Source: Pedobacter frigidisoli
Lineage (GTDB): Bacteria > Bacteroidota > Bacteroidia > Sphingobacteriales > Sphingobacteriaceae
Direction of reading: 5' to 3'
NCBI RefSeq assembly: GCF_004331675.1
Contig: NZ_SJSN01000019.1
Location: forward strand, 301-64,300
Length of the DNA stretch: 64,000 bases
In this document: positions 31,093 to 64,000 of the stretch, piece after piece
Layout of the letters: every line of letters begins with the position of its first letter
Numbering within the stretch: position 1 is the first letter of the stretch
Notes under the pieces: model-generated
Seen by the model: only the letters and a program-made list of their open reading frames with translations
Databases searched by the model: none
What the model was told of the DNA's origin: nothing
Program-made: the position numbers and the translations under genes

Positions 31093-32484
31093 ATGCAAAC
31101 ACGTTACTTATTCATCCTAAAATATATCTTACCCATTACTGACCTGATCATGGTCAATATTGTGTACTTCTTCGCCTACGAATTTACAGCATATATGGGT
31201 AGGACTGTAAGTTTAGAATTACAATGGCATTACATTGTAGTCTGTAATTTGATTTGGATTGTAAGTACCACCTCTTTCAGTCTATATACAGAATATGGCT
31301 CTCGTAGAATTGAGCGAATTTATAGAGGTACTTGGAAAAGTGTGGTATTGCATGGTGTATTATTTGCAATTTATCTTTTCTTCTCTAAACAAAATGAATT
31401 CTCGAGATCTTTCTTGGTAATTTTTTATGGCATGCTGGCCATTCTATTTTTGGTGAATCGCTTTATTGGTACTTCATTTCAGTTCCTATTGTTTAATCAT
31501 CTAAGGGGAGTGAAGTCGGTAGCCATTATGGGCAATAATCCAACTGGTTTACAATTGGCTACTTATTTTGAGAAACAACGGTACATAGAGTTCCATGGTT
31601 TTATTAATGATGTACCCCAAGATTATTTAGACCGCAATGGGCAGATTGCTGACGCAGTTGGACATCAATTTAAATTGGCAGTTGATAAAGGCATCAAAGA
31701 CATTTATGTGACCATTGCACCGGAGCGCATGGCGGATATGACGCTTTTGACTGAAGAGGCAGAGCGACAGTGTGTAAGGTTAAAATTTATACCTGATATC
31801 AGTGGCGCATTATTGTCACCTTATACGGTAAGTTATTTAGGAAATGAATTTCCGGTAATATCTCTTAGATCAGAACCACTAGAAAAGATTAATAACCGTT
31901 TTAAAAAACGTGCGCTCGATGTGGTTTTTAGTGGTTTGGTGATTCTTTTTGTGTTAAGCTGGTTGTATCCAATTATCGCGATTCTAATCAAGATGCAAAG
32001 TAAAGGGCCCGTATTGTTCAAACAATTGAGAAGCGGGCGTGATGATGAACCTTTTTGGTGTTTTAAATTTAGGAGTATGCGCATGAATGCCGATAGTGAT
32101 AAAAAACAGGCAAGCAAGGGCGATTCCCGCATTACACCAATTGGTCAGTTTTTACGCAAATCGAGCTTAGATGAATTGCCGCAGTTTTTTAATGTATTTA
32201 TGGGGCACATGAGCGTTGTTGGGCCTAGGCCACACATGTTAATCCATACCGAACAATATAAAGGCATTGTAGATCAGTTTATGGTACGCCACTTTTTAAA
32301 GCCTGGGATTACCGGTTGGGCGCAAGTAAATGGCTTTAGAGGGGAAACTAAGGAAGATTACAAAATGGTTAAACGGGTAGAGTATGATATTTGGTATTTA
32401 GAGCATTGGACAGCGATGTTGGATGTGAAGATCATTTTTATGACGGTGATTAATATGGTGAAGGGTGAAGAGAACGCTTTTTAA
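31093..32484 (+). CDS. Initiating polyprenyl-phosphate phosphoglycosyl transferase (WcaJ-like), copy 1
   Basis: This 463-residue membrane enzyme moves a hexose-1-phosphate from a UDP-sugar to undecaprenyl phosphate, starting repeat-unit assembly. Four N-terminal helices are followed by a Rossmann-like CoA-binding region (VAIMGNNPTGLQLATYF), a further membrane segment (VVFSGLVILFVLSWLYPIIAIL) and the catalytic bac_transf domain with FKFRSMR, the Asp-Glu dyad in SSLDELPQFFNV, VGPRPHM and KPGITGWAQVNGFRGET. It closely resembles the protein at 39577-40986 in its catalytic half. It stands alone with its own promoter after locus I. Confidence 0.93.
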   Translation: MQTRYLFILKYILPITDLIMVNIVYFFAYEFTAYMGRTVSLELQWHYIVVCNLIWIVSTTSFSLYTEYGSRRIERIYRGTWKSVVLHGVLFAIYLFFSKQNEFSRSFLVIFYGMLAILFLVNRFIGTSFQFLLFNHLRGVKSVAIMGNNPTGLQLATYFEKQRYIEFHGFINDVPQDYLDRNGQIADAVGHQFKLAVDKGIKDIYVTIAPERMADMTLLTEEAERQCVRLKFIPDISGALLSPYTVSYLGNEFPVISLRSEPLEKINNRFKKRALDVVFSGLVILFVLSWLYPIIAILIKMQSKGPVLFKQLRSGRDDEPFWCFKFRSMRMNADSDKKQASKGDSRITPIGQFLRKSSLDELPQFFNVFMGHMSVVGPRPHMLIHTEQYKGIVDQFMVRHFLKPGITGWAQVNGFRGETKEDYKMVKRVEYDIWYLEHWTAMLDVKIIFMTVINMVKGEENAF

Positions 32485-39576: not shown

Positions 39577-40986
39577 ATGAAAAGTCGCCACGTTCTAATT
39601 CTCATCTCGTTCCTGATCATCTTTGATGCATTGGCCATTAACATCGCATTTGGAGTTATTTTTTTAGCTGATATTGTAAATGGAAGTGGCATAGGTGTAC
39701 ACGCCGCCTTGATGATTTTAGTAAATGCCACCTGGTTTGCCTCTGCATTGGTAAATAAAACCTATGCCTACCGCAATGTTCAGTTTACGGAATTGCTCTA
39801 CAGGAAAAGTGCCTTTACCTTTATCGGCCAGATTTTAATGTTAGGCGCCATCTTTAGCCTTTTCTCACAAAAAATTGCCTTTAATGAATCATTCTTTTAT
39901 TTACTCATCACCGAGTTCGTTGCGGTAACCATAGTAAGGTATGTTACTTATCTTTCTGAACGCTTTTACATCAAAATGGATGGCTATAAGAAGAACGTTG
40001 CTTTTATTGGTGGTGATGATATTGGCTTAAAACTGGAGCAGTTCTTTTTAAACAACAGGCTTTCGGTAAAATTTGCAGGTTCTTTTCAGGAACTGCCAAC
40101 GCCATCAACCTCTATTGGTACCACACAGGTAGATGAGTTAAGAAAAGACATCAGCTATGCAATAGAGAACCATTTGGATGAAGTATATACTACTCAGTTT
40201 CCTGGTCATAGCAAGGCAATGGATCAATTGCTCGAACTTGCAGAACGCAATTGCGTAAGGGTAAAATTTGTAGCCTCGCCAGCAAGCTACTTACAGGATA
40301 GTGATAATTTCGCCAGTGCAAACTACTTGCTAAGCAATTTTTACGATGGCATCCCAATATTAACCAACAGACCAGAACCCCTTAATTTATTGAGCAATAG
40401 GGTGGTAAAAAGAGCATTCGACATTGCCTTTAGCCTTTTTGTGATTGTATTTATTCTTTCTTGGTTTGTACCCTTAATGACGATCCTCATCCGTTTAGAA
40501 TCTAGGGGATCAGCCATTTTTCGTCAACTGAGATCTGGTCGCGATAACAAGCCCTTTTACTGTTATAAGTTTAGAAGTATGAGGATAAACGACCAAAGCC
40601 ATCACAAGCAGGCCTCGAAAGGTGATCCTCGGATTACCAGAATTGGCGCCTTTATAAGAAAAACCAGTATTGATGAATTGCCTCAGTTTTTTAATGTATT
40701 GAAAGGCAACATGAGTATAGTTGGCCCAAGGCCTCACATGCTGAAACATACAGAGGAGTACAGTAAAATCATCAATAAATACATGGTGCGTCATTTCCTA
40801 AAACCTGGAATTACCGGTTGGGCTCAGGTGAATGGCTTTAGGGGTGAAACTAAAGAACCGGCACAAATGCTTGGAAGGGTTAACCACGACATTTGGTACA
40901 TGGAAAACTGGTCGCTTTTTACAGATATTAAGATCATCTACAAAACAGTTAGAAACGCACTAAAAGGTGAAGACAACGCCTTTTAA
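39577..40986 (+). CDS. Initiating polyprenyl-phosphate phosphoglycosyl transferase (WcaJ-like), copy 2
   Basis: A 469-residue paralog of the protein at 31093-32484. N-terminal helices, Rossmann-like linker (NVAFIGGDDIGLKLEQF), a membrane helix (IAFSLFVIVFILSWFVPLMTIL) and the catalytic domain with YKFRSMR, TSIDELPQFFNV (Asp-Glu dyad), VGPRPHM and KPGITGWAQVNGFRGET. The catalytic halves are far more alike than the N-terminal halves. It opens locus II and would charge undecaprenyl phosphate with the first sugar. Confidence 0.93.
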   Translation: MKSRHVLILISFLIIFDALAINIAFGVIFLADIVNGSGIGVHAALMILVNATWFASALVNKTYAYRNVQFTELLYRKSAFTFIGQILMLGAIFSLFSQKIAFNESFFYLLITEFVAVTIVRYVTYLSERFYIKMDGYKKNVAFIGGDDIGLKLEQFFLNNRLSVKFAGSFQELPTPSTSIGTTQVDELRKDISYAIENHLDEVYTTQFPGHSKAMDQLLELAERNCVRVKFVASPASYLQDSDNFASANYLLSNFYDGIPILTNRPEPLNLLSNRVVKRAFDIAFSLFVIVFILSWFVPLMTILIRLESRGSAIFRQLRSGRDNKPFYCYKFRSMRINDQSHHKQASKGDPRITRIGAFIRKTSIDELPQFFNVLKGNMSIVGPRPHMLKHTEEYSKIINKYMVRHFLKPGITGWAQVNGFRGETKEPAQMLGRVNHDIWYMENWSLFTDIKIIYKTVRNALKGEDNAF

Positions 40987-51195: not shown

Positions 51196-52263
51196 ATGAA
51201 ATTTTATTCATTATCCATAGTTTTTGTTCTCTTTGTATTTTTGGCTTGTACAAAAGGAATCTCCGATGGGGAAGTTGCAACGACTACTGCTGATAGCTCT
51301 TTGAAACAACTTCCTTTCCCATTTGGTGCAGCAATAAGCGCAGAATTACTCCGAACTGATCCACGATATAAAGCCTTAATCATTCGTGAATTTAAAAGTA
51401 TATCTACCGAAAACGCAATGAAGTTTGGGATCATCCATCCATTGGAAAATACGTATAATTGGACAGATGGAGATGAAATTGTAGCCTTTGCGCAAGCCAA
51501 TTGCATTCGTGTACATGGCCATACCTTAAACTGGTACCAGGATGCACCAGACTGGCTTAAAAATTTCGACGGGGATAAGAATGCTTGGGAAAATCTTTTG
51601 AAAACACATATCCAAACCATTGTCAAGCATTATAAGGGTAAGGTAACTTCTTGGGATGTTGTGAATGAGGCTTTTGAGGATGATGGTCGTTATAGAAATT
51701 CGATATGGGTACAAAAACTTGGTACAGACTATATTGCAAGGGCTTTCCAGTATGCACACGAGGCAGATCCTGTTGCCTTATTGTTTTACAATGATTATGG
51801 GCAGGAATACGGATATGAGTACAAAGGCTTGAAAAGAAATGCAATATTGGCGTTGGTGAACGAACTCAAATCTAGAGGTGTACCCATTAATGGCATTGGT
51901 TTACAAATGCATACCAAATATACCCAATCTGATTTCGATATTTCCCTAGCCATTTCTACGGCTGCAGAAACCGGACTAAAAGTTCACATTTCTGAACTTG
52001 ATGTAGCGCTTAACCCTAATTTTGATGCTACGCTTACTTTTTCACCTAGTTTGGATGAGATGCAAGCCTCTAAATACAAGGCCATTGTTAAACTTTATAA
52101 TGCAATTCCAAAGGCACAACAGTTTGGTATCACCACTTGGAATGTAACCGATAAAGACAGTTGGGTTCCCGTATTTTTTAAAAGGCCCGATTGGCCATTG
52201 CCCTTTAATGCCGATTACCACCGCAAGGCTGCTTACCGTGGCATTTTTGATGGATTAAAATAA
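51196..52263 (+). CDS. GH10 endo-beta-1,4-xylanase-like lipoprotein
   Basis: A 355-residue exported lipoprotein (signal ending VFLAC, Cys18) with a complete GH10 barrel. Landmarks are ENAMKFGIIHP (72-82), RVHGHTLNWYQDAPDWL (105-121), acid/base Glu158 in WDVVNEAF, YNDYGQE, and nucleophile Glu267 in HISELDVAL, then ITTWNVTDKDSW. All catalytic residues are present. As the last gene of locus II it probably cuts the locus II polymer or a related beta-linked glycan at the cell surface, as PslG or BcsZ do in other EPS systems, rather than plant xylan. It converges on dxs with nine bases between stops. Confidence 0.92.
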   Translation: MKFYSLSIVFVLFVFLACTKGISDGEVATTTADSSLKQLPFPFGAAISAELLRTDPRYKALIIREFKSISTENAMKFGIIHPLENTYNWTDGDEIVAFAQANCIRVHGHTLNWYQDAPDWLKNFDGDKNAWENLLKTHIQTIVKHYKGKVTSWDVVNEAFEDDGRYRNSIWVQKLGTDYIARAFQYAHEADPVALLFYNDYGQEYGYEYKGLKRNAILALVNELKSRGVPINGIGLQMHTKYTQSDFDISLAISTAAETGLKVHISELDVALNPNFDATLTFSPSLDEMQASKYKAIVKLYNAIPKAQQFGITTWNVTDKDSWVPVFFKRPDWPLPFNADYHRKAAYRGIFDGLK

Positions 52264-54380: not shown

Positions 54381-55187
54381 TTAACTCATGCGAACCATAA
54401 GGTTTACCTTTAAGGGAATTTTGATGTTTACCAATGTGCCCTTATAACTCTCAATAATTAATGTTCCTTTCAGGCGATCTGTACGTTGCCTTATATTATG
54501 TAGACCTTTTCCCAACCCCTCGCTTTTATCCGGATCGAAGCCAATGCCGTCATCCTTGATACTGATTAAAAGATTGTCGTTATCAATATCAATGGTTAAT
54601 TTAACCTTTGTTGCGGCTGCATGCTTGAGTATATTGTGTGCTATTTCCTTAACCAGTAGGTAACATTCCTTACGGCTTTGACTGTTGATTACGTAATTGG
54701 GAATTAATTCAGGCAGTTCGGAACTAAAGGAGATTGTAGTAAGCTCAAAAAGTTTTCTAATTTGCCCTTCAATGTAATATAAAAGGTCCTCAAGCTCATC
54801 GCTCTGCGCATTTGTGCTCCAAATAATTTCGTTTATCTTTTCTGAGACCTCATTTACCATGCCCCTTATTTTTTGCATTTCCTCAACATCTGGTCTGGTT
54901 CTGCTTGCAAGCTCGGTGTACAACTTTAATGCCGTAAGCCCTGAGCCAATCTCATCATGAATCTCGCCGCTGATACGTTCTCTTTCGCTTTTGATAAACT
55001 CGTTCTGAAAATTTAATTTGTCTTTATAAGTGGAAAGATTTTTTTTGTTAATGTAAAGGATGGCCCCAAAACTGATTGCAACAATGGCACAAACCGCTAC
55101 ATTTATGGCCCCTAAGTTCGAAAAAAAGTTAATATGCCCAGCTTCGGAAAACACTAAGTGGAATATGGTTAAACACAGTTTGTTCAT
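54381..55187 (-). CDS. Sensor histidine kinase, NarL/DesK type, copy 2
   Basis: A 268-residue kinase from the ATG at 55185-55187. One membrane helix lies near residues 27-46, HisKA_3 has His77 (RISGEIHDEIGSGLTALKLY), and the HATPase domain has LVKEIAHNILKHAAA, IKDDGIGFDP and GKGLHNIRQRTD. It is collinear with the kinase at 37630-38424 and likewise divergent from a NarL-type regulator gene. It also lacks a sizeable external sensor domain. Confidence 0.93.
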   Translation of the reverse strand: MNKLCLTIFHLVFSEAGHINFFSNLGAINVAVCAIVAISFGAILYINKKNLSTYKDKLNFQNEFIKSERERISGEIHDEIGSGLTALKLYTELASRTRPDVEEMQKIRGMVNEVSEKINEIIWSTNAQSDELEDLLYYIEGQIRKLFELTTISFSSELPELIPNYVINSQSRKECYLLVKEIAHNILKHAAATKVKLTIDIDNDNLLISIKDDGIGFDPDKSEGLGKGLHNIRQRTDRLKGTLIIESYKGTLVNIKIPLKVNLMVRMS

Positions 55188-55532
55188 CAAAAAACTTAAA
55201 TTTTGTAAAATTAATACTACATTATTTATCCTTTTTTGTTTTTTCTTGTAGATTTTTATGATTAAATTCTTGTCGGCATTTAGCGATTAAAATCTTACAA
55301 TATCATAGGACAAGGGTAAAACTACATATTATTTTCTTTATATCTAGATTTGTAGCGTCCCAGTGGTTTACTAGTATATAGTCTCTATCTTTATGTTATT
55401 TGTGCAATGGCCAAAATTTTGGGTATTATGGTATATCCTAATGCTCCATCGATTTTGTCTTATCGCCTTGTTCTCAATAACTGATTTAGAGACGTACTAA
55501 TATTTTCTATCACGTCACTAAAAAAAGATTAA
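55188..55532. promoter_or_regulatory. Divergent regulatory region of kinase/regulator pair 2
   Basis: 345 AT-rich bases between divergent kinase and regulator genes. Only near-matches to the -7 element are visible (TATCTTTA around 55387). No obvious dyad or sequence shared with the corresponding region of pair 1 was found by eye. Confidence 0.35.
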
Positions 55533-56186
55533 ATGATTTCAATTTCAATCGTTGAGGACCACGAGCAGTACCGACACAATTTAGTTAAAGCTATTGAGCA
55601 AAATAAATCCTTTGTAATTAAAGGGGTATATTCTTCTGCAGAAGATGCCATGAAAAAGTTGGCAATAGATTCTCCAGATATCGCCATTGTAGACATTAAA
55701 CTTAAAAGCAAATCGGGTATCGATTTAATTTTAGAAACTAAGGACGGCCTAAAAAACACGCAGTTTTTAATGTGTACGGGATTTCAAGACGACGAAAAAA
55801 TATTTAGCGCACTTAAGGCCGGTGCATCCGGTTATATTATAAAGGGATCTTCTACTACCGAAATTCACGATGCCCTTTTGGAACTTCATGATGGTGGCTC
55901 ACCAATGAGCCCGTTTATAGCCCGAAAAGTGATAAGTCATTTACATAAAAGTAAGCAAGAGCCAAAGGCTGATGTGCTTGGTCTTAGTAAAAGAGAAATT
56001 GATGTTCTAATACTTTTAAGTAAGGGACTGCAGTATAAAGAGATATCAGAAAAGCTATTTATTAGCGCTAATACGGTTAAAAACCATTGCAAGAATATCT
56101 ACAAGAGGCTTCATGTACAAAATAAGGTAGAAGCATTGAATAAATTTAAGTTTTTCAACTATCAATCGCCAACTTACGTGAGTTAA
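55533..56186 (+). CDS. NarL-family response regulator, copy 2
   Basis: A 217-residue regulator with phospho-acceptor Asp54 (DIAIVDIKL), the conserved lysine in GYIIKGSS, and a LuxR-type DNA-binding domain LSKREIDVLILLSKG..YKEISEKLFISANTVKNHCKNIYKRL. It is highly similar to the regulator at 38795-39442, including HVQNKVEALNKF after the recognition helix, so both may bind closely related sites. It sits upstream of the locus III genes. Confidence 0.94.
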   Translation: MISISIVEDHEQYRHNLVKAIEQNKSFVIKGVYSSAEDAMKKLAIDSPDIAIVDIKLKSKSGIDLILETKDGLKNTQFLMCTGFQDDEKIFSALKAGASGYIIKGSSTTEIHDALLELHDGGSPMSPFIARKVISHLHKSKQEPKADVLGLSKREIDVLILLSKGLQYKEISEKLFISANTVKNHCKNIYKRLHVQNKVEALNKFKFFNYQSPTYVS

Positions 56187-58498: not shown

Positions 58499-59116
58499 GT
58501 GGTGTTTAAGAAGAGGGCTGTAAGATTAAGTATTAACGCAAAGGAATGTTTGGCTACAATGAGGCTTGGCCGTGTTAGCGAACAACCAAATTCCGTATCT
58601 ATTTTTCAGGATTGGAGAGAAAACAAGGGTAATTTCAAATCGAGACTAGTAATGGTTTTTTATAGGTTAGCTTTTCTCATTCAAGGGAATAAGATATTAT
58701 CCATTTTGTTCTTTTGGTATCTATTAATCTATAAATTTATTATTGGCTGGGTACTAAATATTGGAATTAGTTCGAAATCTGTTATTGGTAAGGGCTTGCG
58801 AATTCAGTATGGTTTTGGAACCGTTATTGGAGGCCAGACAGTAATAGGTAATTCTTGCAACATTAGCCAGCTTACCACTATAGGAAATAAAATTATTGAA
58901 AACGGCACTTTTAGCAAATCGCCAATTATTGGTAACAATGTAGATATTGGGGTTAATGTAACCATTATAGGCGATGTGCGCATCGGGAATAATGTAGTAA
59001 TTGGCGCAGGTGCCGTTATTACCAAAGATATAGAGAACAACTGTGTAGTGGTGGGTAATCCTGCTGTACTCCTAAAGAAAAAATACGACCTCACTTCAAG
59101 TTACGATATCGGGTAG
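58499..59116 (+). CDS. Serine-acetyltransferase-like hexapeptide acetyltransferase, copy 2
   Basis: 205 residues from GTG at 58499; an ATG at 58559 would give 185 residues, closer to the 183-residue paralog at 47210. It has SIFQDWRENKGNFKSRLVMVFYRLAF and beta-helix repeats ending SPIIGNNVDIGVNVTIIGDVRIGNNVVIGAGAVI. The segment NISQLTTIG replaces HCTTIG of the paralog, so the histidine at that place is Gln here, and catalytic activity at this site is uncertain. It is probably an O-acetyltransferase of locus III or a degenerate copy. Confidence 0.82.
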   Translation: MVFKKRAVRLSINAKECLATMRLGRVSEQPNSVSIFQDWRENKGNFKSRLVMVFYRLAFLIQGNKILSILFFWYLLIYKFIIGWVLNIGISSKSVIGKGLRIQYGFGTVIGGQTVIGNSCNISQLTTIGNKIIENGTFSKSPIIGNNVDIGVNVTIIGDVRIGNNVVIGAGAVITKDIENNCVVVGNPAVLLKKKYDLTSSYDIG

Positions 59117-59443: not shown

Positions 59444-59809
59444 ATGAAAAAACATATACTACTGGTAGATGGAGGATTGAATCTCTCTAAGTTAATGCAC
59501 TTTATCCTATCGTCTGATTACAAACTTACCATTATGACGAGTGGAATTGAAGCGTTAAGTTGGCTGGAGGAAGGTAACGATCCCGACTTAATTATTACTA
59601 GTCTTCGAATGCCTTATTTTGATGGTGGTTTGTTTATCCAAAATCTAAAATTAAGTGGATTTTATCGCAACACACCTGTAATGTTGTTATCAGGAGAAGA
59701 AAATCTTCATGAAAAGGTAGAGCAGATGTCGTTCAAGATAGATGGCTATATGGAAAAGCCATTTAACCCAACAATATTAAAAAATCATATTAACAGATTA
59801 ATTGCCTAA
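59444..59809 (+). CDS. Stand-alone receiver domain lacking the phospho-acceptor
   Basis: About 121 residues from the ATG at 59444, chosen because GGAGG lies 11 bases upstream; an ATG at 59405 would add 13 residues. The CheY-like fold is clear (HILLVDGGLN, LIITSLRMPYFDGG, VMLLSGEE, GYMEKPFNP). At the phosphorylation position Asp is replaced by Ser53, and the first acidic pair is reduced to Asp9. The switch lysine in EKPF remains. It is probably a pseudo-receiver that signals by binding. It overlaps the next gene by one base. Confidence 0.88.
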   Translation: MKKHILLVDGGLNLSKLMHFILSSDYKLTIMTSGIEALSWLEEGNDPDLIITSLRMPYFDGGLFIQNLKLSGFYRNTPVMLLSGEENLHEKVEQMSFKIDGYMEKPFNPTILKNHINRLIA

Positions 59810-60885
59810 TGACTACAATAGCCATTGAGGAGTCAACAGCCAATATTAAGATCGCTTATTTTGGCACTATACTAAGCAGCAATTTAGCGCTCCAACTTGA
59901 AAATAATTTCAGGTATATTTCTTTCTCTGATAATTTAAGTGCCTATTTAGCTGAGCAAAGCCTGTTAACTTTGCCAGATGTAATTATAATGGAAGTTGGC
60001 GGTAATGATGAAAGCTTAAAACAGGTTGCCTACATTAAGCAACATCCTGTGCTTAAAAACCTTATCACAATCCTCATTGGGCTTGATGGTAATGAGGAGC
60101 TTAGAAAAAAATCATTAAACCTTAAGGTAAATGATTATTATGCCTATCCATTCCCGATGGAGGATTTTTTTGCCAGAATTAACTTCTTGGTAAAATTTAA
60201 ATCTATAAAACCAAGGATGCTTGAATTGCCGAGAGTAATGGAGCAGCGTTATCGGATGCCTGTAAGCAAAAGAATATTTGATGTAATTGCCTCGGGTTTT
60301 GCATTGTTATTGCTTTCTCCATTGTTCATCGTTATTGCCATTTTAATCAAGTTAGAATCGAAAGGGAAAGTTATCTATAAAAGCAAGCGTGTAGGTGCAG
60401 CCTATAAAATATTCGATTTTTATAAGTTCAGATCGATGCGTAGCGATGCGGATAAAATGTTGAATGACTTGGCCGCCCTTAACCAATATGCCAATGAGGG
60501 CGATAACAAAAATGGTAAATCTGCTTTTGTTAAGTTTAATAACGACCCACGGATTACTCGCCTTGGTAAAATACTTCGAAAAACCAGTATTGATGAATTG
60601 CCGCAATTGATTAATGTATTTATTGGTGATATGTCTTTAGTGGGTAATAGGCCACTTCCGCTTTACGAGGCAGAGCAGCTGACTACAGATCGTTGGTCTA
60701 CAAGATTTAACGGCCCCGCAGGCCTTACAGGTTTATGGCAAATTAGCCGAAGAGGACACAAGAACATGTCTGAGAGCGAACGCAAAGAGCTAGATAATTA
60801 CTATGCGAATCATTATTCTATTTTCCTTGATATGAAAATTATCATTAAAACCATACCCGCACTTATTCAAAAAGAACAAGTTTAG
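59809..60885 (+). CDS. Pseudo-receiver fused to initiating phosphoglycosyl transferase
   Basis: A 358-residue fusion. Residues 12-135 follow a receiver fold (IKIAYFGTILSSNLALQL, LPDVIIMEVGG, LITILIGLDGNEE, VNDYYAYPFPMEDFFARI) but with Glu62 at the phosphorylation position and Tyr in place of the switch lysine. From about 150 a membrane hairpin (VIASGFALLLLSPLFIVIAILI) and a bac_transf catalytic domain follow: YKFRSMR, TSIDELPQLINVFIGDMSLVGNRPLP and GPAGLTGLWQISRRG. This catalytic type resembles WbaP more than WcaJ. It would start repeat-unit synthesis for locus III under control of its N-terminal domain, possibly with the preceding pseudo-receiver. Confidence 0.9.
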   Translation: MTTIAIEESTANIKIAYFGTILSSNLALQLENNFRYISFSDNLSAYLAEQSLLTLPDVIIMEVGGNDESLKQVAYIKQHPVLKNLITILIGLDGNEELRKKSLNLKVNDYYAYPFPMEDFFARINFLVKFKSIKPRMLELPRVMEQRYRMPVSKRIFDVIASGFALLLLSPLFIVIAILIKLESKGKVIYKSKRVGAAYKIFDFYKFRSMRSDADKMLNDLAALNQYANEGDNKNGKSAFVKFNNDPRITRLGKILRKTSIDELPQLINVFIGDMSLVGNRPLPLYEAEQLTTDRWSTRFNGPAGLTGLWQISRRGHKNMSESERKELDNYYANHYSIFLDMKIIIKTIPALIQKEQV

Positions 60886-60910: not shown

Positions 60911-61588
60911 ATGAAATATTTCTTCCTATTATTCTCAATGCTAGTTATTGCTACTAGTGTAAGCGCTCAAGAATCAATCATCCCTAAAATCAATTATGCC
61001 GATTTGGAGAAGTACGTTGAACTGGCAAAATTAAATTATGCTAAACGTAAGGTTCAATTTACCAAAGGAGAAAGTCTTAAAACCAGTGTTACTGTTGCTA
61101 AAATGTCTTATTTTGATATCTTCAATGGCTCGTATATTTATAGACCTAATGGCCAATCGGTTGTTGATCCAGTTAACCCTTACAATGTAAATGGTCTTCA
61201 ATTTGGAATAAGTGTAAGTCTTGGAACTATTTTGCAGAAACCTTTTTTAATTAAAAAAGCTAAGCAAGATTATAAGGTTGCTCAATTGGAGCTGGAAGAT
61301 TTTGATGCGGAGCTTTCTGTTGAGGTAAAGAAACGATACTACGACTATATCGAACAATTGGGGAAATTAAAAATATATACCCAAAGTGCACAAGATAGCA
61401 AAGGCATATCTGATAGCATGAGAAGCAAGTTTGAAAAAGGGCAAATTACCCTTGATCTTTATAACCAAGCCCGTATAGAGTTAACCTCAGCTTTCAGTCT
61501 TCAAATTCAAACGGAATCATTGTTCTTAAAATCAAAAGATTTACTAGAACAAATCATCGGTCAGAAAATCTCCACAGTTAATCAATAG
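60911..61588 (+). CDS. Half-length TolC-like outer membrane efflux family protein
   Basis: A 225-residue exported protein (signal MKYFFLLFSMLVIATSVSA). The coiled-coil body (IKKAKQDYKVAQLELEDFDAE and VKKRYYDYIEQLGKLKIY, then FEKGQITLDLYNQARIELTSA) matches one repeat of the outer-membrane efflux protein family, which normally has two repeats in about 430 residues. It sits where loci I and II have a Wza-like gene, so it may serve the outer-membrane export step as an oligomer of halves, or as an accessory subunit. Confidence 0.8.
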   Translation: MKYFFLLFSMLVIATSVSAQESIIPKINYADLEKYVELAKLNYAKRKVQFTKGESLKTSVTVAKMSYFDIFNGSYIYRPNGQSVVDPVNPYNVNGLQFGISVSLGTILQKPFLIKKAKQDYKVAQLELEDFDAELSVEVKKRYYDYIEQLGKLKIYTQSAQDSKGISDSMRSKFEKGQITLDLYNQARIELTSAFSLQIQTESLFLKSKDLLEQIIGQKISTVNQ

Positions 61589-61597
61589 CTTTTCGTA

Positions 61598-63736
61598 ATG
61601 GATAAGAAATCCCTAGTCACCCAGTTCATGAGATTTAAATGGTATTTTATTGCGATACCAATTGTTGCTGTATTAATAACCTTTTTTCTTGTAAAGAAAA
61701 TGGCCAAGCAATACATATCTGAGGTTCAGATATCGACTGGTCTTTTAGATCCATCAAAGAAGGTAGTTAGCAACGAAACTGTTGATTTTTTCGCTGTGAA
61801 TCAACAATTTGCAAATATTATTGAGAAATTTAGTAGGAAACGAATGATTAACATTCTAACCTATAACTTAATGATACACGATTTATCTGATCCGAAAAAA
61901 TCGTTCAGAGATCATGCTGATCCATTAAAAAAATTAAACGATTCAGATAAGACAAAAATCGTTTCGATATTGCAAAGTAAACTTGCAACAAAGGCATTGC
62001 TTACACTTGATGATAATAAGGGAACTTATAAACTGTACGATCTTGCAGAAAGTATGGGTTATGGAGAAGAAACTTTGAGAAAAAAACTCGATATCTCTCA
62101 TGCAAATAATAGCGATTTGATTACGGTTGGCTTTATTTCTGAGAATCCAAATCTATCGGCTTATGTTGTTAATACCCTCTCGAACGAGTTTTTGAACATT
62201 TATAGTTTGGATGTTTCTACTAACCAGAGTAATTCTGCCATGCTTTTAGATTCGCTACTTAAATCTAAGGAGCTTGTAATGAACAGGAAAAACGAATCGC
62301 TTTCAACTTTTAAAAGAACTAAGGGCGTACTTAATTTAAATGAGCAATCGGCCACTGTCTATAACGAGATTTCGAAATATGAAAGCCAGCGGGCCGACAT
62401 GTTGCGTACAATCGTATCAAACCAAGGCGCCATTAACACAATTGTTGGAAAATTAAGGGGTAGCGATGCCTACGTTAATGGAAGCAGCAGAGCTGATAAT
62501 AGAGAGATTGTTAATTTAAAAAGACAATTGCAAGCCGCCAATAATGCCTTTATAGATGGTGGTTTTAAGCCATCAGACCAGCGCAAGATTGATTCACTAA
62601 ATAAATTAATTACCATAAAGAGTGATATTAATGCTGATGAGAATGTTTTGGATCCAAGAACATCAAAGCAAAGTCTTGTACAGCAGAAACTTGATTTGGA
62701 AATAGCGCTACAACAAGCCAAAAGCGGGATAAAATCTATTGATACTGAACTAAGTACCTTGAGAGGAAGATATGCTGGGATGGTACCTTTTGATGCGGAT
62801 ATTCAGAATTATGAGCGTGACGCCGATATTGCGACAAAGGATTATATGGCTGCGCTTGATCGTTATAACCAAAGTAAAACCAGCCAAAGCTTAGGTTTAC
62901 ACCTTAAGATTGAGCAAGCAGGTTTGCCAGGAAACCCTCAGCCATCAAAAAAGGTTCTTTATGTAGCAGGGGCCGGCTTTGTAAGTATTGCACTCTGCCT
63001 TGGCGCATTATTTTTATTGGTTTTATTAGATGAAACGATAAAGGATGCAGACCGATTGCGTAAGCTTACCAAATCGAACGTAATTGCAAGTGTTTGCAAA
63101 ATTAACACCAACGAACGTAATCCCAGCGTAATTTGGAAAGAGAATGGTGGTGATTTAGCACTAGAGCAGTATAGAAATGATATTCGATCTTGTAGGTTTG
63201 AGTTACTTAAACAGCTAGACCATGACGATGACCAAATTTTAGGTATAACCAGTTTGGAACCAAATGATGGGAAAACACAATTGGCCTATAGCCTTGCTTA
63301 TTCTTTTGCTATGGTTGGTAGAAAAACACTCCTTATTGCAGATAATTTACCTTTAGTGGAGACAAATAGTAAACAAATTTCGGTTAATCAAAGTTTCCAA
63401 AATTTTATAGTAAAGAGAAAATTGCAGACAGAGGATTTAATTACTGTGATGACCAAGAATGCGGCAAAAAACTCTTTGCTAGAATCACAAAGCTTCCATA
63501 ACCTTAAAAGTGGTTTCGAAATTTTAAAGAATGAATTCGATAATATCATCATTGATATCAATAGTTTGCAAGATCTTAACTTGGCTAAGGAGTGGTTGCT
63601 TTTTACCGATAAAAGTATTACAGTATTTAAATCGGGCAATAAAATTTCAAGTGATCAGCATAAGCTTGTAGAATATATACAGCAGCAAGAAAACTTTGCG
63701 GGATGGGTGTTTAACCAAACAAGCACAGCAACCTAA
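61598..63736 (+). CDS. Wzz/GumC-like polysaccharide co-polymerase with degenerate kinase domain
   Basis: A 712-residue protein. A Wzz domain starts with a helix near residues 15-32, a long coiled-coil periplasmic part follows, and a second helix lies near 450-470 (VLYVAGAGFVSIALCLGALF). The C-terminal P-loop domain is eroded: SLEPNDGKTQLA with Lys559, the A' motif reduced to LLIADNLPL, Walker B NIIIDINSL. There is no C-terminal tyrosine cluster. It probably sets chain length and docks export without tyrosine autokinase activity, unlike copies 1 and 2. Confidence 0.88.
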   Translation: MDKKSLVTQFMRFKWYFIAIPIVAVLITFFLVKKMAKQYISEVQISTGLLDPSKKVVSNETVDFFAVNQQFANIIEKFSRKRMINILTYNLMIHDLSDPKKSFRDHADPLKKLNDSDKTKIVSILQSKLATKALLTLDDNKGTYKLYDLAESMGYGEETLRKKLDISHANNSDLITVGFISENPNLSAYVVNTLSNEFLNIYSLDVSTNQSNSAMLLDSLLKSKELVMNRKNESLSTFKRTKGVLNLNEQSATVYNEISKYESQRADMLRTIVSNQGAINTIVGKLRGSDAYVNGSSRADNREIVNLKRQLQAANNAFIDGGFKPSDQRKIDSLNKLITIKSDINADENVLDPRTSKQSLVQQKLDLEIALQQAKSGIKSIDTELSTLRGRYAGMVPFDADIQNYERDADIATKDYMAALDRYNQSKTSQSLGLHLKIEQAGLPGNPQPSKKVLYVAGAGFVSIALCLGALFLLVLLDETIKDADRLRKLTKSNVIASVCKINTNERNPSVIWKENGGDLALEQYRNDIRSCRFELLKQLDHDDDQILGITSLEPNDGKTQLAYSLAYSFAMVGRKTLLIADNLPLVETNSKQISVNQSFQNFIVKRKLQTEDLITVMTKNAAKNSLLESQSFHNLKSGFEILKNEFDNIIIDINSLQDLNLAKEWLLFTDKSITVFKSGNKISSDQHKLVEYIQQQENFAGWVFNQTSTAT

Positions 63737-63756: not shown

Positions 63757-64000
63757 ATGCAGAGAAGCATATTTATCGTTTTATTACTCTATTGTTTTTT
63801 ATATGGTATTTTATTCCGTGAGGTTGGCGGCATCCCTTATGGCCTTTTTGTAGAGGGATTAATTATCATAACCATTATTGCGGTAATTATTATTACCCCA
63901 AAGTTCGATTGGAAAATCATTAATAACGATCTTTTCTTTTGCGTGCTGATTTGGTTGGTAGTAAGTATACTGGAGGTTATCAATCCTGCGGCAAGTGTTC
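63757..64000 (+). CDS. Membrane protein, N-terminal part (probable polymerase/ligase of locus III)
   Basis: An ATG at 63757 opens a frame of 81 codons that runs off the window. It encodes hydrophobic helices (SIFIVLLLYCFLYGILF, GLIIITIIAVIIITP, FFCVLIWLVVSILEVINP) typical of the start of O-antigen ligase/Wzy-type proteins. Position directly after the co-polymerase fits a polymerase. The conserved loops lie beyond the edge, so the family is inferred. Confidence 0.65.
   Translation, partial: MQRSIFIVLLLYCFLYGILFREVGGIPYGLFVEGLIIITIIAVIIITPKFDWKIINNDLFFCVLIWLVVSILEVINPAASV

Follow-up and report, generated by a model that had tools for sequence, protein, structure and literature searches.

To our knowledge, there is one experimental case in which a receiver domain controls an initiating phosphoglycosyl transferase (PGT), namely the pair of EpsW and EpsZ. 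In Myxococcus xanthus, the phosphorylated single-domain response regulator EpsW stimulates the initiating PGT EpsZ (PMC12802240; all papers given by PMC number are cited from parts of their text). The discussion of the same paper describes small monotopic PGTs (small monoPGTs) as functional monomers, and the paper cites O'Toole et al. 2021 for the observation, made by sequence analysis, that receiver domains occur in small monoPGTs. The second related system is PleD of Caulobacter, in which the true receiver, once phosphorylated, contacts a pseudo-receiver in a different way, and dimerisation and diguanylate cyclase activity follow (PMC12632262). A pseudo-receiver is defined there as a receiver that lacks any one of five conserved residues. 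The same source gives Glu as the most frequent replacement of the acceptor in aspartate-less receivers, and states that the activation mechanisms of bacterial pseudo-receivers "remain a mystery".

Control of a PGT by a receiver is already in print, and so are receiver-PGT fusions, the latter by way of PMC12802240. As for a PGT as the output of a pseudo-receiver, the word "transferase" is absent from the main text of PMC12632262 as cited here, and "sugar transferase" and "glycosyl" are absent from that of PMC4395418. Apart from the general remark on receiver domains in PMC12802240, our searches found no literature on the Bacteroidota gene pair described below; since most papers under subscription lay outside their scope, absence is not proven. 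Two papers on F. johnsoniae (PMC7807042 and PMC10197871), in the parts cited, were not relevant to the pair. What is new, as far as these searches show, is an overlapping receiver-PGT pair across Bacteroidota, the fixed pseudo-receiver in it, and the repeated, coordinated loss of phosphorylation in its partner.

The pair was analysed in a stretch of 64,000 nucleotides of Pedobacter frigidisoli (contig NZ_SJSN01000019.1, positions 301 to 64,300), which we call the window. The features of the locus are as follows.

58499..59116, + strand: hexapeptide-repeat transferase, probably of the same polysaccharide locus (PF00132, 2.1e-9)
59405, + strand: in-frame ATG, alternative start of the lone receiver, giving 134 aa
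59444..59809, + strand: lone single-domain receiver, 121 aa (PF00072, residues 5-116, 1.9e-14)
59471-59473, + strand: codon of Gly10 of the lone receiver (second acidic position)
59600-59602, + strand: codon of Ser53 of the lone receiver
59809..60885, + strand: small monotopic PGT, 358 aa, with a pseudo-receiver fused at its N-terminus (PF02397, residues 154-353, 2.9e-60)
59836..60213, + strand: fused pseudo-receiver, residues 10-135 (NCBIfam PleD, 1.2e-6; conservation over 95 distinct sequences)
59992-59994, + strand: codon of Glu62 of the fused domain
60262..60882, + strand: catalytic domain of the PGT with hydrophobic hairpin (model helix 152-183) and D262-E263
60911..61588, + strand: TolC-like outer membrane protein, +1 neighbour (PF02321, 1.3e-16)
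61598..63736, + strand: Wzc-like chain-length protein, +2 neighbour (NCBIfam TIGR03007, 1.4e-22, and TIGR01007, 4.6e-12, both below the cut-offs)
63757..64000, + strand: start of a membrane protein, a relative of the +3 Wzy-type polymerase, cut by the end of the window

The AlphaFold2 model of the lone receiver has a mean pLDDT of 90. The residues at its five conserved positions are D9, G10, S53, S83 and K105; that is, the acceptor (Ser53, within PDLIITS-LRMP) and the second acidic residue are gone and the other three are kept, which makes the lone receiver of the window a pseudo-receiver by the above definition. The stop codon of its gene and the start codon of the PGT gene share one base (TAATG).

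The fused domain has Glu62, within PDVIIME, at the acceptor position. Gly19-Thr20 replace the acidic pair (placed at residues 19-20 from the strand positions of the two structure models), Gly91 replaces the Ser/Thr, and Tyr113 replaces the Lys. The Pfam model PF00072 did not match the fused domain of the window, and it matched that of 12 of 29 homologues at E values up to 0.01; the receiver models of NCBIfam did match the window's domain. The predicted model of the PGT has a receiver fold at the N-terminus, where the ten-residue blocks from 11 to 130 reach a pLDDT of 80-90. For the whole model the mean pLDDT was 70.5 and the pTM 0.46, the N-terminal part being good and the catalytic loops poor. 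Among the Foldseek matches of this model were PglC and WbaP; its N-terminal part matched many receivers and aligned with solved ones at a target-normalised TM of about 0.75-0.81. With a receiver fold and an incomplete DD/D/T/K site, the fused domain is likewise a pseudo-receiver by definition. The original prediction had placed Ser53 at the acceptor position of a lone receiver whose gene overlaps the PGT gene, and Glu62 at that of an N-terminal receiver fold of the PGT. Coordinates, residues and overlap all proved correct, and alignment by strands puts no Asp at the acceptor position in either domain. That is, both domains of the window lack residues needed for phosphorylation, at S53 and G10 in the lone receiver and at G19-T20, E62, G91 and Y113 in the fused domain.

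The enzyme itself belongs to the small monotopic PGTs. It carries PF02397 and the dyad D262-E263, which is invariant in all 89 aligned PGTs and which we take to be catalytic. The features of large monotopic PGTs of the WbaP, WcaJ and EpsZ type, a membrane bundle of four helices at the N-terminus and a DUF in the cytoplasm, were not seen, since PF13727 gave no match (of two other PGTs of the window, used as a control, one matched this model and one did not). The 19-residue hydropathy stays at or below 1.16 in residues 1-140 and reaches 2.72 in the hairpin, which speaks against a four-helix membrane bundle there. The two other PGT genes, at 31093-32484 (463 aa) and 39577-40986 (469 aa), have the length of the large type; PF02397 is found in both and CoA_binding_3 in the first only, and Pfam detected a receiver in neither.

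The locus resembles both described systems in part. Like EpsW-EpsZ, it combines a single-domain receiver with an initiating PGT, here of what is probably a Wzx/Wzy exopolysaccharide, and the function that we propose is likewise post-translational control of the first step. However, EpsZ is a large monoPGT with a four-helix bundle and a DUF, whereas the PGT of the window is small and has a pseudo-receiver of its own; and EpsW is phosphorylated, whereas the lone receiver of the window's clade lacks the acceptor (Ser53, with Gly10). Like PleD, the pair would combine a phosphorylatable receiver with an enzyme-tied pseudo-receiver, and PleD was also the best solved match of a 29-row fused-domain profile in the PDB (1.6e-12). 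Of the 136 profile positions, 84 are covered by this match, which scores 34 bits on PleD's true receiver and a weak 13 bits on its pseudo-receiver. PleD is one chain with a diguanylate cyclase as output, whereas here there are two overlapping genes and a PGT as output, and the pair is thus not of the PleD type proper. The loss of conserved residues is the same as that described for known pseudo-receivers and aspartate-less receivers in the parts of PMC12632262 and PMC4395418 cited.

We then asked how widely the pair occurs. Loci were collected by similarity to the PGT and are therefore not a random sample; 279 loci gave 225 distinct PGTs, and a receiver gene was sought on the same strand in the 400 bases upstream. 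A lone receiver was found just upstream of 221 of the 225, the exceptions being L019, L135, L138 and L142. The distance was 50 bases or less in 211 of these 221 pairs, and the genes touch or overlap in 147. Since the whole genome of the organism (5.3 Mb) contains only 62 receiver matches, such adjacency would by our estimate very rarely arise by chance. These results indicate that the receiver-PGT pair is conserved in Bacteroidota and is not a chance neighbourhood. A search for the same fusion elsewhere had been proposed with the original prediction, and it recovered both fusion and pair across the phylum.

In a draw of 399 genomes of the family, 167 had a match to the fused domain at an E value of 1e-9 or less, and in a smaller draw 124 of 201 had one at the loose cut-off of 0.001, which takes in ordinary receivers. 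In a draw from the phylum, in which at most six candidates per genome were scored, at least 35 of 296 genomes matched the whole-protein profile at 1e-60, some of them without the fused domain. The named loci (the best 80 of 175) come from Pedobacter, Mucilaginibacter, Parapedobacter, Niabella, Sporocytophaga, Bacteroidales and others. Among 30 loci of the phylum search, 7 encode a PGT of 249-284 residues without the fused domain, and in four of the seven (L136 and L139-L141) a canonical lone receiver still lies directly upstream of the PGT.

A few records are worth mentioning separately. One copy of the pair is in a record titled Heimdallarchaeota MAG (L099), which may be a binning error, and another in a record titled Flavobacteriaceae PS02338 (L102), which falls inside a Pedobacter clade of the PGT tree. 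One genome has two equally scoring copies of the fused domain about 6 kb apart in opposite orientation (G101:C1:2128400 and 2134660); one of them lies only in an open frame of 223 residues, which may reflect an inverted duplication in which one copy was truncated.

The lone receivers of the relatives differ from that of the window. In the 221 distinct pairs the acceptor was Asp in 203, Ser in 13 and Glu in 5. The complete quintet was present in 197 (DDDSK in 177, EDDSK in 16 and DDDTK in 4), and four Asp-type receivers lacked their N-terminal part. Judged by these residues, the lone receiver would usually be phosphorylatable in the relatives. Thus, the original prediction of two degenerate receivers holds for the window, but the lone receiver is not inherently a pseudo-receiver, and its family in general does not have that character.

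All 18 receivers without Asp also lack the second acidic residue (DGSSK in 12, DNSSK in 1, DSESK in 2, and DTESK, DGESK and DSETK in 1 each). Among Asp-type receivers this residue was changed in two, DGDSK and the EKDTK of L137, whose alignment is unsure because another alignment gave Val at its acceptor. In a PGT tree of 93 rows the Ser receivers lie on one side of a single branch, which means one change (SH-aLRT 84). In a tree of 221 rows the support of this branch was 57 and Glu arose twice, giving three changes in all. The Ser form is thus one Pedobacter clade. Since the second acidic residue is gone in all 18 cases, in three lineages, the loss of the phosphorylation site is both correlated and repeated. 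No compensating complete site was found in the fused domain of any lineage with such a loss. Because the acceptor is Asp in 203 and the quintet complete in 197 of the 221, and because receivers without Asp are confined to three lineages, the ancestral system was very probably controlled by phosphorylation. When 10 Ser rows were compared with 10 nearby Asp rows, the core positions at which the two sets share no residue were 10, 13, 38, 53, 55, 64, 85 and 87; most of them are in loops around the former phosphorylation site. The Glu-acceptor receivers (L200, L293, L294, L295 and L299), with their second acidic residue lost, are phosphomimic-like and form two lineages separate from the Ser clade.

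In the 225 distinct fused domains, the acceptor position was occupied by Glu in 195, Asp in 8 and other letters in 13 (one unreadable), with a gap in 9. None of the 225 has a complete canonical site; all five positions are occupied by a residue in 211 of them. The first acidic residue was kept in 6 and both acidic residues in 2 (L126 and L130, neither with Glu or Asp as acceptor); the Lys was kept in 2 (L119 and L122) and the Ser/Thr in 105 of 217. The domains nearest to canonical are those of two deep relatives, L119 (DPESK) and L122 (DHESK), which keep the first Asp, the Ser and the Lys around a Glu acceptor; that of L122 matches the lone-receiver profile at 2e-22. Because these two keep the pocket residues around Glu, we infer an order in which Asp gave way to Glu early and the rest of the pocket was lost afterwards. 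From its sequence, we take the fused domain to be an old, permanent pseudo-receiver.

The original prediction suggested that Glu62 may mimic a permanently phosphorylated state. In that case the fused domain would be locked in the active form, the enzyme would be constitutively dimerised or active, and the lone receiver would be secondary. The frequency of Glu (195 of 225, and 89 of the 93 with a residue there in the first set) agrees with such mimicry, as do the possibly early Glu change in L119 and L122, the retained Ser/Thr, the match of both phmmer and Foldseek to 2jb9, a structure of the constitutively active PhoB variant D10A/D53E, and the Glu of five lone receivers. However, only 2 of 225 still have the Lys, and the fused domains with Asp (8) or another letter (13, one unreadable) at the acceptor have no complete site either. 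The window also lacks the Ser/Thr and both acidic residues. Since the Lys and Ser/Thr that are thought to hold the mimic in place are gone, simple mimicry by Glu is less likely in the window, following the reasoning of PMC12632262, where Bourret et al. also note that such hypotheses were disproved in some cases. The claim is thereby weakened, and we consider it unlikely.

The most conserved residues of the fused domain are R123 (95 of 95), D109 and Y111 (94 of 95 each) and E62, and Y17 is also conserved. D109 and R123 align with positions that, to our understanding, form pairs across the helix4-strand5-helix5 dimer face in PhoB/OmpR relatives. A number of the best-conserved residues map to the former active site and to strand 5 and helix 5, and they could instead belong to a rebuilt pocket (Y17, E62, D109 and Y111) that binds a small molecule, such as a nucleotide sugar or a cyclic dinucleotide, and exerts feedback on initiation. 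D109 and R123, however, presumably resemble ordinary consensus positions of receivers, and a ligand sensor leaves the companion receiver unexplained. Although some other pseudo-receivers do bind ligands (PMC12632262), such a sensor seems to us quite improbable here.

Evolutionary rates bear on whether the two domains are still in use. In pairs with dS of 1.0-1.9 among L008-L011 and L039, the omega of Ser-type lone receivers was 0.023-0.092, similar to that of Asp-type pairs. In pairs with the divergent L013 it was 0.12-0.30 where computable, and many other pairs of the Ser clade were saturated in dS. The Ser-type lone receiver thus appears to be kept under purifying selection. The rate of the lone receiver relative to the catalytic domain was 1.48 in the three loss lineages together versus 0.90, which, like the higher omega in pairs with L013, fits relaxed constraint too.

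Over background branches the fused domain has a somewhat higher rate than the catalytic one, with a ratio of 1.34. With 22 taxa, the ratio was 3.06 in the Ser clade without L013 (2.37 with it) versus 1.12 in the nearest Asp rows, and the ratio of these ratios had a median of 2.7 and an interval of 1.7-4.2 over 40 resamplings. We did not retain a faster fused domain in the Ser clade as evidence, because with 186 taxa the values were 1.55-1.84 versus 1.34 and other clades reached 2.04. In the two Glu lineages the ratio was 0.93 and 1.35 (186 taxa).

The fused domain might be a structural relic, that is, a module for folding or membrane placement, with the lone receiver as a co-inherited orphan that acts on an unrelated target. 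Its absence from 7 of 30 phylum loci means that catalysis does not need it there, and its faster rate agrees with this explanation as well. But the adjacency of the receiver gene is near-universal (221 of 225), E62, D109, Y111 and R123 are near-invariant, and omega is low in close pairs for both the lone receiver and the fused domain. We therefore regard a mere relic as improbable.

A local duplication of the lone receiver was considered as the source of the fused domain. In a receiver tree, 15 fused domains formed one clade (99/96), apart from the neighbouring lone receivers and from other receivers of the window's genome; the tree is unrooted, with 121 columns and long branches, and 15 of 23 fused rows passed its length filter, that of the window not being among them. 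Within the limits of this short tree, the placement may speak against such a duplication. Direct coupling analysis of 186 pairs had an effective number of 79 for 247 columns. Four within-cluster shuffles served as the null. The top score was higher there (1.86) than in the data (1.68), but ranks two to ten scored lower there than in the data. Couplings between receiver and catalytic domain were as strong as those between receiver and pseudo-receiver.

The surrounding genes would fit a Wzx/Wzy locus, of which the window contains the outer membrane protein, the Wzc-like protein and the start of the Wzy relative. The +1, +2 and +3 clusters each occur in 61 of 80 wide loci, at exactly these positions in 60, 60 and 46. 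The corresponding proteins of the window match cluster members in 54, 60 and 46 of the 80 loci, the +3 protein with 81 residues. The +3 member in L034 (Pedobacter sp. BMA) carries PF04932 Wzy_C (6.1e-13). A GT2 glycosyltransferase and Wzx (PF01943) follow further downstream in the scanned relatives only, the window ending before that point.

In four relatives the gene directly upstream of the lone receiver encodes, judged by its sequence, a receiver-Hpt protein that resembles the end of a hybrid kinase; Pfam confirmed this for L139 and L120. The PGT of L139-L141 lacks the fused domain, and the fused domain of L120 has Lys at the acceptor.

L139, 2778-3728: receiver-Hpt gene upstream of the lone receiver
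L140, 2711-3583: receiver-Hpt gene upstream of the lone receiver
L141, 190-1056: receiver-Hpt gene upstream of the lone receiver
L120, 28-642: receiver-Hpt gene upstream of the lone receiver

These proteins are the best hint as to the input and likely feed a phosphorelay into the lone receiver. No kinase gene adjoining the pair was seen in the window, where the nearest one identified is at 54381-55190. It encodes a HisKA_3 kinase and is divergent from a gene for a LuxR-type response regulator, the two occupying 54381-56186, with a GH10 gene (51196-52263) on one side and the polysaccharide locus on the other; they are candidates for a transcriptional input. Hybrid kinases were rejected as regular neighbours, since the hits in L043 and L047 (the latter scanned with Pfam) were single cases among the 80 wide loci. 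Three seeds proved to be an NRPS (L058), an amidohydrolase (L100) and a rhomboid protein (L110).

Taken together, the best reading of these results is that the first step is controlled through protein contact, one of the two forms of control suggested in the original prediction. The two genes would form a switch of two parts that acts on the committed first step in the synthesis of an exopolysaccharide of Wzx/Wzy type. The fused, permanent pseudo-receiver may serve as a docking surface of the transferase and probably also as its surface for self-association. The lone receiver, when phosphorylated, would bind this pseudo-receiver in trans and change the oligomeric state or the activity of the PGT, much as the true receiver of PleD dimerises its output enzyme by acting on the neighbouring pseudo-receiver and as EpsW acts on EpsZ. 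By this analogy, the general design is probably a phospho-switch that acts in trans on an enzyme-tied pseudo-receiver, like a split PleD, with EpsW-EpsZ as the functional precedent.

In the Pedobacter clade of the window, the acceptor and part of the metal site were lost together and yet the receiver was kept. Its role there is therefore most likely that of a constitutive partner subunit, and control would be exerted by its amount, as the overlap of the genes suggests, or by another partner. We give an even chance to the two-part switch as a whole, that is, to a lone receiver acting in trans on a docking pseudo-receiver and serving as a constitutive partner in this clade. A fuller version extends a split, trans-acting PleD for glycan initiation to Bacteroidota throughout. 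The phosphorylatable lone receiver would dock on the pseudo-receiver and switch an oligomeric small monoPGT; in about three lineages, that of the window included, a coordinated two-residue change would have removed the phospho-input and left the receiver as a constitutive regulatory subunit whose abundance is the signal. We consider this version rather doubtful. For both versions, dimerisation runs against the description of small monoPGTs as functional monomers (PMC12802240).

If the split-PleD reading is true, small monoPGTs would act as oligomers, contrary to the monomer view, and the pair offers a comparative set for whether these enzymes can be regulated by assembly. It is poorly understood how undecaprenyl phosphate is rationed among competing glycans. 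The phosphorylatable and the naturally dead versions of one receiver also provide a ready comparative set for the function of pseudo-receivers.
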